DNA from: Sarcocystis neurona
Taxonomy: Eukaryota > Apicomplexa > Conoidasida > Eucoccidiorida > Sarcocystidae
DNA length: 64,000 nt
NCBI GenBank assembly: GCA_000727475.1
Contig: KL647289.1
Location: 8,298,629-8,362,628 of the forward strand
Direction: 5' to 3'
Shown: positions 46,101 through 58,100 of the stretch, piece by piece
How the letters are laid out: every line of letters starts with the position of its first letter
How positions within the stretch are numbered: the first letter of the stretch is position 1
Notes under the pieces: model-generated
Told to the model about the DNA's origin: nothing
Databases searched by the model: none
Seen by the model: the letters and a program-made list of their open reading frames with translations, nothing else
Made by a program: the position numbers and the translations under genes

Positions 46101-49100
46101 TTCTCCTTTGTACGAAGAGACGAAGTCACTTCTCTTCTCTGCGTTGGGGAGGTGTTCATCGGGGAGGACCCCCTCGCCGCGCTCTCCGCCTTTGTCCTAG
46201 TGAAAACTCCGGCAGCTGCCCACCAAATGCGAAAGGGACGTCATTGCGGGCCCCTTTTGCTGCCGTCTCTCTTCCCTGAAGTGTAGCTGCTTTGCCGGCG
46301 GCGTTGAACTCTGTGAAACAGTGGACCTTCCTATCGAGTGGTTGTGTCTTCGTTTTAAGCGGATCTTCTTGCTGCATGACAAATCAATCACAAGTCCCCG
46401 TGAAAATTCACCCGCATTTCCCTCTCCAGCTCCCTATCCGTCTTCTCCCCCTTCCTGACATATGCGTAGGTGGACACGCAGGTGTCTCTATATACGTATA
46501 TATAACTGTGTGTGTGTGTGTGATTATGAGTGTATTTCCTTGTATTTATATGCGCCAATACAATGGACGGTAGCAGACATTCCTGCAGGAGGTGCTGTTT
46601 GGTGGTTGGTGTATCCTCTTCTTCTATCTTCCTTCGCGTTTACAAGTCCCCAAGTTGGTTGCTGCTGCTGTCCCTTCCTCCCGATCTTCTTCACGCTCTG
46701 TAAAGCTGAGATGCGGTCCGTGCTGCTCCTCTTGTTTTCGGCTTCCTCTATCTTCTTCATCTTCGTAATTGTGGGTGGTTGGACGGGGCTTCTCTTGAAT
46801 AACGGACAAAACACAGACGTGTATGTCCGTATATCACTGAAGATACGCGTACTTCACCTCTGCATGTTATACGAGCTAGGAAGACCAAACGCAACGTCTT
46901 CTCTATGACGGCCACGAGCTGGGCACGAGCAGTTCTACACAATTTCACGGATACGAGCGGCCACGTCATAAGTGAAGAAGAAGTCCAAAAAGAAATTCTA
47001 CAGCCTCTATGCAACTCCCCATATGTAAAATATACGTGCGTGCACAGGCCACCGGCACGTAGACGGTTCTCCATGGGAGTCCGTACATATATATATGTGA
47101 TGGGATTGTGTTATCATGTGAGTCTGTACATATACCTGTATATTTATATAGACATGTATAGATGCATGTGAGTCTCTACACATATATATATATATGTGAC
47201 TGTGATTGTGTTGCTCATATGTGCCTGTACATAACCTATATATATATGTGTGTATATGTATATATATATATGTATATGCATATGTACGTATGTGTATATA
47301 TATATATAGATATATACATATATATATGTATATGCATATATATATATATATATGTATATGTGTGTGTAATTGGGATTGTGTGGCTCACGTGATTGTGTAC
47401 ACGTCGTACGTGCCTGTATATGTATGTGTGTAAGTTTCTACGTACGTGCATGTATACCTATATATATACATATAGGTAGATATATATTTGTACATATAAA
47501 TACGTATTTCTACATTATTGTCAACGTATGCATGCATTTAAGTAGCATTGCGTAGAGAGTATTTGTTGGTTTTCGAATATATACGTGTGGAGCAGCAATG
47601 CTGGTGATGGCTGCACGTACGTTTGCAGGGAAGAAATTTTTTTTCCGGAGACAGCGGCCCGTTTCTACGCGGCGGAAATTATTCTCGCGCTTGAATACCT
47701 TCACAGTACGTGTCTCGTCTCTTGACGCGGGCACGGCAGCAGGAACAGCAGAAAGAACTGCAAGAGCTGCTTCTGAAATGCCCCAGCAGCAGCACCAGTA
47801 GTAGGAAATGCAGCAGAGCAGGTCTAACAAATAAACAGCAGCAGCAGCAGGCTAAAGGCCGACGCAGACAGCCCCGAAAGCGGTTGTGTCACCAGAGAAG
47901 CAGCAACGACGACAGAAAATAGACAAAAACGGCAGCCACAGCAGCAGCCGCAGGGACCGCAGGACATTTCTCAGGCAGGGGGGACGACGAAGCAGCAACA
48001 GCAGCGACAGAGACACAAACAGCAAGTAGTCCACTACTCAACCGAGCTAAACTCTGCCTGTCAGCAGAAGGAGGAGAAGCAGCCGCGGCAAACAGTCCAG
48101 CAGCAAGGTAACTTTTTGAAGCAGACGAGGTGAAGGAATGTCGGGAGGAGAAGAAGAAGACGAATCAGCAGCAGACAGTCCCACAGCAAGTCCATCATAG
48201 AAGTACGCGTGGCGACGATGTCTCAGAAAAAGAAGAAGCGCCAGCAGCAGCTGTGCAAAGAGAGCAACGGCAGCAGATACCCCCCGGCAGCAGCAGCAAC
48301 AACAGACGCGTGACGAGATCATAGCACCCCAGCAGCGAAGGACTGCCTACTTAGCAGAAGCAGCAGCAGCAGTAGATATGTGCCAGGACAGCAGGAGCTA
48401 TACGTATACATGTGTATATATAGAGAGGGACAGGCCTATCAAAATTTTGCACTTGGGTCCAGCTGTATACATAGATGTTGCGGCTTCGAGAAGGCATGTA
48501 TGCGCTTCTTTGTACGTGCTTCACATTTCTTCCCGTATACACATATACGTATAGGAACACATGTATGTGTATATATGTGCGCCTATATGTTTGTGTGTAC
48601 ATACCTATATATATATATATGTATGTACTAGTGCACACATGTGCGCGTGTACGTTTCTTGTTTGCTGTTGAACAAAATTTAGGTTTCGGCGTGGTTTACA
48701 GAGATCTGAAGCCGGAGAATATTCTCCTCGATGCCCGTGGACACGTTAAATTAGTCGATTTCGGTTTTGCAAAGCAGCTGAAGCCCTCTCCTGCTGCATT
48801 TTCCTCAACTGCAGAAACTGCTGCTGCTGCTGTTACTTTGCCTGCTGCGGGTCCGGCGTCATTTTCCACAGTTCTTCCCCACGACGCAGCAACTTCGCCT
48901 GTCTGTACATCGCACTTCTTAAGCGACCCCACAACTTCCCCTGCTGCTGCGATACGGCGTGCCAGTCCTGCCTCTCCTGCAGTTGCTCTTTCCTTCTGCG
49001 CGCCTGTCTCCCCCCGTGCTGCTGTTGCTGCTGCCTCTCCCGTCGCCGTTGCTGCAGCGAGGCTGGTCAACTATGAACTCTTCTCTGCTGCGACTGTCGG

Positions 49101-55100: not shown

Positions 55101-58100
55101 AACGACGACGGCAGAAACAGTGGCGAAGGCAGAACCAGCAGCAGCAACAGCAGCAGTAGCAACAGCAGCAGCAGCCGCTGCAGCTGCAACAACAGCAGCA
55201 GCAGCAACAGCCGGTTCTTCCAAGAGTAGCAGGACCCGCTCTTCGTTGCAGCTTTCCGCAGCTGCGGATACGCGTGCGGTGGTAGCGACTTTCCTCAGTG
55301 AGAAGGCTGCGTCTGCCGGTGCTGCAGGTGCTGCCGCTGCTGCGTCTTCGGCAGCAAGTGAACGTGACTGCATTGCAACGACTGCGTCTGCTGCTGTTGC
55401 TGGTATCGCCCGTGGGCCCTGCATAGCAGCGTCGTCTCAGCACTGCTGCGGCACTCCTGACGTTGCTGCTGCTGGTGCTGCTGCTCTCAGCTTGTCTGCT
55501 CGGAAGAAGAAGGCTGCTGGGATATGTACAGGTCGCTGCGCTGGCGCAGGAATTGGTGCTGCTGCTGGTGGTGGTTGTCAAAGTACGGGGGGAGAGTGCA
55601 CTACTGGGTCGCCTGCTGCTGTTGGCGAGTACTCAAAGCCGAGACAGCGAACGGCACTTGGCAGCAACAGCAGCAGCAGCAGCGACAACAGCAGCAGCAA
55701 CGACAACAGCAGCAGCAACGACAACAGCAGCAGCAACAACAGGAGCAGAAACAGCAACAGAAACAGCGACAGCAACAGCAGCAACGGCAGCAGCAACGAC
55801 AGGAGGAGAAACCGCAGCAGCAACGGCAACAGCAGCAGAAGCTGCGGCAATGATAGTAGCAGCTTAAGCGGGAGCACAGGTAGCTGCAGCGCTACAGGCA
55901 CGGGGAAGCGCACCAGCAAAAAGACTCTTGGAGTCGAGTCAACTCGCAGGAACAGCAGCAGCAGGAAGAAGAAGAACGAGAGAGAAGGCGTTTCTAGTAA
56001 TGGCAACGGGATTACGTGCTGCAGCACCCGATACGAAGGGAAGACAGAGGGCAGCAGCAGCAGCAGCCGGGGCAGTGTAAGCGACGCCAAGGCAGCGGCT
56101 GGCAGCAGAAGCGAGAAGAAAAACAGTTCTTGCTGCTGCATGGGAGAGAATCAGTCGATCCTGCCGCTTCACAGGGAAGACACGTGTATCAAAAGAAGCA
56201 CCAGCAGCCGCAGGTGCAAGAGCGAAGCCGAGCAAACTAGCAATGTCGGCGTGATCCGCCACAGGAACTGCAGCAGCCATTGCAGCAGCAGACACCGCGA
56301 CTCCTGCAGCAACAGTGATAGAAGTAGTAGTGGAAGGAGATGCTTCAACGGGAGGGAGTCGAGGAGAGGCAGTAGCGACAGCAGCAGAAATGAGACAAAT
56401 ATTTGTAGGAGGACCCACGACAATCCCAGCAAAGCAGAGAGAAGGAGCCACTGGCACTGCAGCAGCAGGAGGAGCAGCCACTGCAGCAGGCGAGGCAGAG
56501 AAGACTGCAGTAGCAGTGACGACGACAGCAGCAGCAGGTGCTGCAACAGGAGAGCGGGGAACAACAGCAGCGACGGCGCAGAGGGCGAAAGACATCCGGT
56601 CAGAAAAGGCAGCAGCAGCAGCACCAACTGCCGGTTGGAGGACAGCAGCAGCGGCAGAGCCTGCAGCAGAGGGGAGCGCAGCAGCGGCCTGCGGATGAGG
56701 ACGAGGAGGAAGAGAAGAGAGACGGTGGACGAGGACTGTGTCGGTGGGGGAAATAGCAGCGGGCGCAGCTTCCTTGTAGGCTTTTACAGCAGGGGCAGCA
56801 GTCCCGAAGGAACGGCTCGAAGACTCTCATGCATTCAAGCGGGGGAGCGGAGAATGGCAGCTGCAGCAGCCGCGGCAGCAGCAGCCGTCGCAAGAGAAGG
56901 AGAACAGGCCGAGACAAAGGCGCTGTTGTGGAAGAGGATTAGCAGCAGCAGGCCGGCGTTGAGCAGCAGCAGCAACAGCAGCAGAAGCCGAGGCAGCTGC
57001 CAGAAAACGTATACCATATGTGGAACGCCAGAGTATCTGCCGCCCGAAGTGCTGCTGGCAAGGGGCCACGACACAAAGGCCGACTGCTGGGCGCTAGGCG
57101 TTCTCCTCTATGAAATGCTCACCGGGTACATTCACGTATTTTCTCACATACATCAATGTGTGTTGCTTCCTATCTTCTGTATCTCTCTCTCTACGTATCA
57201 TCCATGGCACGTATTTATTTTCTTTCTCCTTTCGTAAGCCGGGCACACCAGCTGCTATACATGACACAGGAAAGCCTACGACCTATCTCAGCTCGCCGTC
57301 CCTCTATAGGACATACACATATATATTTATATTATACGTAGACGTACTTAGCTAAGCTCATAACCTGGTTTTATACGGCGACTTTCATCTACACACACAT
57401 GCATAGATATGTCCATACACATATATATATATATGTATATGTGTACCCCGGTATATACACGTGTGAATAGGTAGAGGTGAAAGTAAGTCAGAATGTTGAT
57501 GGGGCTATTTCTCTTCATTTGCCTATATCCACAAATATACGTATATATACATATACCTACACATATCCATATGCATATATATATAGATATAGATATAGAT
57601 AGTTATGGCTATACATACGTGGATAAACATGTGCACAGTTACAAGTAAGAAAAAGTTAGAATTTTGATAAGTCTGTCTCTCTCTCTGTATGGCTGTACAT
57701 ATCCACATATATATATGTATATATAGAAAGAGAAAGGGGTAGATGTATATATATACGTGTGTAGGTGTGTAAAGGCGTAAGTGAAGAAGAGACCGAATTT
57801 TTGTGAGTTGGTTTCTCTTCAGGAAAGGACACATCCACACATATGTGTCGATAGGAAAGTAGATAGACAGGTAGGTCGGTGTGTCTTATTATACGCATGC
57901 ACACGTATAGACGAGTACAAAGGAAGAGTCTGGACTCTGTGGCTGCCCTGTTTCTGTCTTCCGTCTTGATGTGTACGTGTATATCCGCATTTTTCGAAGT
58001 GGTGTAGATACACCCACAAGAACCGGGCGGTGTACGTACACCCCGGACGGGGCCTCTGCGCGCAGCTCTGCTGCCTGGTCGTCCCTCCATCGCTGCCTTG

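Follow-up and report, generated by a model that had tools for sequence, protein, structure and literature searches.

The closest described counterpart of the gene reported here is Greatwall (MASTL), a mitotic AGC kinase in which about 500 to 550 poorly conserved residues separate the DFG motif from the T-loop and APE motif (excerpts of PMC5342071 and PMC11961639). This insert bears activating Cdk1 sites (PMC11961639, in part), and the literature assigns Greatwall to the MAST/Rim15/IREH kinases. Here we describe a 64,000-nucleotide stretch of Sarcocystis neurona DNA (contig KL647289.1), hereafter the window, which carries a PKA/PKG-like AGC kinase gene. Its activation segment is interrupted, after DFG and before the T-loop, by 2,741 codons free of stops, and predicted relatives in four further coccidia have an insert at the same place.

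Other kinases with insertions in this region are known. In the plant AGCVIII kinases (phototropins, PINOID), an insertion domain of 36 to 118 residues lies between the magnesium loop and the T-loop and sets localisation in some members (PMC3499706, in part). While the location is similar, the plant proteins have DFD and SFVGTEEY where the coccidian ones have DFG and CGTPEY, and the plant insert is much shorter. NDR and LATS kinases have a basic, autoinhibitory insert of 30 to 60 residues between subdomains VII and VIII, again far shorter than the coccidian one. Among apicomplexan kinases, Pfmap-2 and Pfcrk-5 have inserts in or near the activation loop that are conserved across Apicomplexa (PMC3239843, in part), but these proteins belong to the MAPK and CDK groups and the inserts measure about 26 and >100 residues. 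The kinase family described here is absent from the excerpted text of that paper on apicomplexan kinase inserts, and we found no paper describing the insert in the open-access literature, which is no proof that none exists. Finally, homopolymeric repeats of Eimeria are of the CAG type and are read as Ala, Ser or Gln in coding regions (PMC4287421, in part).

An open insert between DFG and the T-loop

A plus-strand frame from 48475 to 57237 is open over 2,920 codons and contains, in order, the catalytic loop and DFG (VVYRDLKPENILLDARGHVKLVDFGFAKQL), the insert, KTYTICGTPEYLPPEVLL and the start of the C-lobe. As a first-pass annotation of the window had claimed, KLVDFGFAKQL is followed in a single uninterrupted frame by 2,741 codons (48781-57003), one K and then TYTICGTPEYLPPE. 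The spacing from DFG to GTxxY, 13 residues in a PKA-named protein and 14 in a PKG-named one, is 2,752 in the window gene, with the insert residues being mainly Ala, Ser, Thr and Arg. The flanking pieces are well conserved, the catalytic-loop/DFG piece having 79% identity with the Toxoplasma relative P0004 across 34 residues and the T-loop piece 76% across 41 residues. The remaining kinase exons all lie in order around the giant exon, as judged by tblastn against three relatives described below, P0002-P0004 (Table 1). The annotation was also right that the catalytic residues are retained: the Gly-loop, VAIK lysine, helix-C glutamate, YRD, DFG and PPE are all present, on separate exons or on the giant exon, as is the AGC C-tail motif FDEYPDS.

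The insert has 0 in-frame stops, while the other frames have 51 and 74 on the plus strand and 45, 35 and 51 on the minus strand. Dinucleotide shuffles of the insert (300 sequences, 900 frames) give a mean of 73.8 stops per frame with a minimum of 49, and order-3 Markov sequences (likewise 300 sequences, 900 frames) a mean of 41.7 with a minimum of 22. The open frame far exceeds chance at such a composition. As CAG-type repeats avoid stops intrinsically, the neighbouring CAG-rich intron is a better control than the shuffles. In its CAG-rich portion, 656 bases with a CAG/CTG density of 0.108 per base versus 0.107 in the insert, each of the six frames has 4 to 8 stops. Within the insert, CAG-type tracts are read as Ala (333 bases), Ser (357) and Gln (45), the pattern described for Eimeria homopolymeric repeats; CTG-type tracts are read as Ala (246 bases), Leu (9) and Cys (9). 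The guanine-cytosine (GC) content is 0.59, versus 0.44 to 0.50 across four measured introns. From the missing stops, the CTG tracts kept in the Ala frame, the GC content and the contrast with the intron, we infer selection on a translated frame, and the insert is likely translated.

Inserts in coccidian relatives

Relatives were identified by two protein searches. A search with the C-lobe piece, restricted to proteins of 1,606 to 5,110 residues, gave three candidates, two of which are relatives, from Cystoisospora suis (2,318 residues) and Besnoitia besnoiti (2,438 residues). A search with the Besnoitia N-lobe, restricted to 1,341 to 4,266 residues and taken to the best 120 of 129 matches, added proteins from Toxoplasma gondii COUG (1,743 residues) and Eimeria flavescens (1,377 residues). 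All four have an insert between the identical residues as the window gene, and the site is occupied in 5/5 family members seen. The orthologue comparison proposed in the first-pass annotation, looking for a shared position with varying length, is thereby positive: the inserts of the relatives are 1,044, 1,116, 1,242 and 545 residues long, versus 2,741 codons in the window gene. These alignments show that such an insert characterises a family of coccidian kinases rather than one odd gene. A search for shorter relatives (412 to 1,312 residues) returned no coccidian protein among the best 120 of 5,521 matches, which does not show that none exists.

The inserts of C. suis, B. besnoiti and T. gondii are not repeat-made. 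They are mutually homologous in a comparison of the five insert sequences (E 9e-20 over 498 columns for P0003/P0004, 7e-8 for P0002/P0004 and 3e-5 for P0002/P0003), and TRA[TS]SWSSIQLDP is found in all three. At the level of sequence conservation, the kept motif shows selection on the insert in these three species. A weak candidate for the motif in the E. flavescens protein P0007 (GPRARESWVSILLEE) is equalled by 3/150 shuffles and is not claimed. Identity to the window gene in single exon blocks is 33 to 70% for E. flavescens and up to 79% for the other three relatives, and because of this lower identity the E. flavescens protein may be a paralogue. E. flavescens belongs to the Eimeriidae and C. 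suis to the Sarcocystidae; should the window gene be an orthologue of the Sarcocystidae relatives, the split would predate the divergence of the two families.

Both kinase halves, catalytic residues included, are present in the four relatives, yet two of these are annotated as "protein kinase (incomplete catalytic triad)" and two as "hypothetical protein". Neither the over-long kinase domains in a Sarcocystis kinome table (PMC5371900, in part) nor TGME49_272540, which a phosphoproteome study calls an AGC kinase with an incomplete catalytic triad (PMC6716450, in part), could be tied to the family.

Placement within the AGC kinases

Among the best 60 solved structures matching the T-loop piece, PKG1 ranks first, followed by PKA and next by an RSK. 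To place the family, phylogenetic trees were generated, to which the window gene supplies just 76 letters. In tree 1 (36 sequences, 6 of 42 chosen having been dropped for pattern mismatch), the coccidian proteins cluster with PKG-type sequences (support 96/99), and in tree 2 (28 sequences) with a PKA-type pair (93/92). A tree of the C-half only again groups them with PKA/PKG (90/96). Forcing the coccidian proteins into a MAST/Rim15/IREH clade is rejected by the approximately unbiased (AU) test, with p 0.009 for tree 1 and 0.014 for tree 2. Here "Rim15-type" and "Gwl-type" are names we give to sequences whose T-loop reads GTPDY, and the trees contained no MASTL, NDR or LATS protein. Joining the coccidian proteins to the phototropins, the AGCVIII kinases of tree 2, is not rejected (AU p 0.09).

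The halves thus group with PKA/PKG, and catalytic residues and C-tail are those of a PKA/PKG-type AGC kinase. PKG proper is a poor fit for the five proteins scanned: no cyclic-nucleotide-binding domain (PF00027) was found in P0001-P0004 and P0007, the N-terminal exons of the window gene lying outside the scan, whereas the domain was detected in the PKG-named control P0005. Altogether the sequences group the family with PKA/PKG, while its position inside that group and its exact AGC kinship are soft.

Like Greatwall, the coccidian family consists of AGC kinases in which a long insert separates DFG from the T-loop. It differs in its grouping, in a T-loop that reads CGTPEY or CGTSEY versus GTPDY, and in an insert up to five times longer. 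Given that the family falls with PKA/PKG in the trees and that its placement with MAST/Rim15/IREH is rejected, coccidia probably acquired the Greatwall-like split on their own, and in the window's species the insert then probably grew via CAG-type repeats. A profile for Endosulfine/ARPP19 (PF04667) had 0 matches in the genome, but 0 in the controls as well.

Splits at the same site in other kinases

The spacing between DFG and GTxxY was surveyed in 121 proteins, the window's and 120 matches kept from the first two protein searches, picked by length and similarity rather than as a kinase survey, and could be read in 91. The five coccidian proteins have 554 to 2,752 residues there. A further 28 proteins have 46 to 451, 27 of them with a GTPDY T-loop and the remaining one a Fonticula kinase with 68; splits at this site therefore recur, the coccidian ones being the longest in the set and outside the GTPDY clade.

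The Pkinase profile gave 138 matches across the 123-Mb genome, from which six places with two pieces seemingly sharing a frame were chosen by eye. Three have stop-free gaps between DFG and the T-loop, of 550 residues (L001, contig C8), 323 residues (L002, C14) and 257 residues (L003, C25). From their appearance, we take L001 to be eIF2-alpha-kinase-like, L002 NDR-like and L003 CDK-like, so that an NDR-like kinase of this genome would have its own gap, of 323 residues. Three other kinases of the genome hence use the same insertion site. The window insert is ~5x the longest such insert met outside the family, that of L001. A fourth place (L004, contig C23), which looks by eye like a DYRK/CLK kinase, is left out of this count, as its stop-free gap of 359 residues follows the catalytic loop but precedes DFG. 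In the last two, L005 and L006, the sequence separating the kinase pieces contains 2 and 6 stops, in contrast to the window insert with none; because of these stops an intron is likely, and they were rejected as same-site inserts.

Gene structure and neighbouring sequence

The features of the kinase gene are collected in Table 1, with splice and exon ends being predictions taken from the sequence. The smaller insert between the Gly-loop and the VAIK lysine is found in the window gene and the relatives alike. The intron after the VAIK exon (41325-43938) is mostly an ACAT/TATG-type repeat, in which long pseudo-open frames encode much Tyr, Val, Cys and Met. Neither the gene end nor the terminal hydrophobic motif was found within the window.

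Table 1. Coordinates of the kinase exons, the insert and the intron control in the window
Feature	Position	Strand	Evidence
Gly-loop (GTGTLGRV), second insert of ~175 residues, VAIK lysine (MALKIMKK), helix C	40641..41318	+	Matches P0002-P0004
Hinge exon (LYLLMEFVNGGELFSVLR)	43951..44031	+	70-78% identity with P0002-P0004
Helix E exon (ARFYAAEIILALEYLHS)	47627..47709	+	tblastn match to P0002-P0004
CAG-rich portion of the intron preceding the giant exon (negative control)	47735..48390		CAG/CTG density, stops
Giant exon: catalytic loop, DFG, insert, T-loop, C-lobe start	48683..57125	+	Open frame; relatives align at both ends; ends predicted
Catalytic loop (YRDLKPEN) and DFG	48691..48780	+	Pkinase profile 118-153
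Insert, 2,741 codons between DFG and T-loop	48781..57003	+	0 in-frame stops
T-loop (TYTICGTPEY), PPE, C-lobe start	57004..57125	+	Pkinase profile 149-196
C-lobe exon (ETPFYDEDVQQMYENILRAPLVIPSRLSPAAK)	58384..58480	+	55-61% identity with P0002-P0004
C-lobe end and AGC C-tail (PPFVPPVRSPADASMFDEYPDS)	60639..60868	+	57-58% identity with P0002-P0004

Upstream of the kinase exons, two plus-strand stretches are open, 31395-37556 (2,053 codons) and 37880-39268 (462 codons), and the end of the latter weakly matches the kinase-domain start of P0002 (E 0.003). Both may be N-terminal exons, which would bring the protein to well >5,000 residues. Further long open stretches run from 16893 on the minus strand (~1,196 codons) and from 3328 on the plus strand (~880 codons).

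Discussion

We favor, at a probability of roughly 60%, a split PKA/PKG-like kinase whose insert is translated and looped out as a Greatwall-like, cis-acting regulatory arm. The insert would leave the fold between DFG and the T-loop, with the two halves still forming one active kinase. The arm, connected through its two ends to the DFG side and to the T-loop, would be disordered, phosphorylated and partner-bound, and its state would control the time and place of T-loop ordering and kinase activation. All five inserts have a disorder-type composition. In the window's species, the arm would have been enlarged by CAG-type repeat expansion confined to one frame; the frame bias is seen in the tracts, and its cause is presumed. 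Because the T-loop of the Toxoplasma member reads FTLCGTPEY, SPARK is a candidate upstream kinase for it, and autophosphorylation of the arm in cis is a guess. A bolder version, which we regard as tentative at best, is that coccidia arrived anew at the Greatwall design, starting from a PKA/PKG-like kinase. The split would then be old and family-wide, the disordered arm a cis switch marked by the kinase's own RRx[ST]-type sites, plus TRA[TS]SWSSIQLDP in Sarcocystidae, and the "incomplete catalytic triad" label would have hidden active kinases.

Several observations weigh against such a regulatory arm. Greatwall with its insert swapped for four residues is still active in vitro (PMC5342071, in part), so the position of an insert does not by itself establish a role in activity. 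All four relatives are predicted proteins. Neither the window insert nor that of E. flavescens matches any other insert at E <=1 among the five sequences, and TRA[TS]SWSSIQLDP is absent from the window insert, where 22/40 shuffles score equally well. PKA-type RRx[ST] sites are above shuffles in 3/5 inserts but weak against neighbouring offsets, and we do not claim them as shown. The kinship evidence also has its exceptions: the N-half-only tree has weak support and places the 28-letter window piece beside PKG, apart from its relatives, and the N-lobe of the Toxoplasma relative finds its best matches in RSK/S6K kinases within 412 to 1,312 residues, a range that excludes most PKA catalytic subunits. 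Lastly, the window insert is repeat-made and thus compatible with near-neutral growth, and a donor-like GTACAT at 48905, together with further GTA sites within the insert, leaves room for a possible splice variant.

The first-pass annotation had left two branches standing, a translated loop and a cryptic intron, and the selection on the frame together with the inserts at the same place in four relatives argues for the former. If most of the region were spliced out to give a normal kinase, at least in some transcripts, the donor-like sites just mentioned could serve, and splicing would not demand an open frame. Yet 2,741 codons without a stop, a GC content above that of the introns, a CAG-rich intron with stops in all six frames and gene models of relatives that retain the insert make this improbable. 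Still more so is an assembly error, which the annotation had raised as a refutation, with unrelated repeat DNA placed between two kinase pieces. Repeat-rich DNA is hard to assemble and the exact insert length may be off, but the exons are all in order, the CTG tracts keep the Ala frame and the site is filled in the four relatives. The window's single N run (62485-62843, 359 bases) lies outside the insert, downstream of the C-tail exon, and a tested piece of the insert (53740-54460) is single copy in the genome, its 24 matches elsewhere being short, partial and to repeat-like stretches.

The more serious competitor, which we consider possible but distinctly less likely than a regulatory arm, accepts that the loop is translated and holds that the site is merely tolerant, CAG-type slippage inflating it without function in Eimeria-like species. 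The repeat-made composition, the lack of likeness to the relatives' inserts and the gaps without stops that three further kinases of the genome have at this site fit this account, and the near-neutrality of such repeats has been discussed for Eimeria falciformis (PMC4287421, in part). It does less well with the inserts of C. suis, B. besnoiti and T. gondii, which keep a motif, and with a site filled in every family member seen. As those three inserts are not repeat-made, the family's split is older than the repeats, a difference from the Eimeria repeats as described.

The Greatwall-type split was already known; what is new is a coccidian PKA/PKG-like family with such a split, extreme in the window's species and probably of separate origin. 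The activation segment is the least expected place in a kinase to accept 2,741 residues, and a coccidian family outside the Greatwall lineage suggests that the site was split more than once. Since relatives are labelled incomplete or hypothetical although both halves with catalytic residues are present, profile-based kinome surveys may mis-score such kinases. The family offers a natural length series, from 545 to 2,742 residues, in which the function of such inserts can be studied, and makes it possible to test whether the repeats of Eimeria are neutral or put to use.

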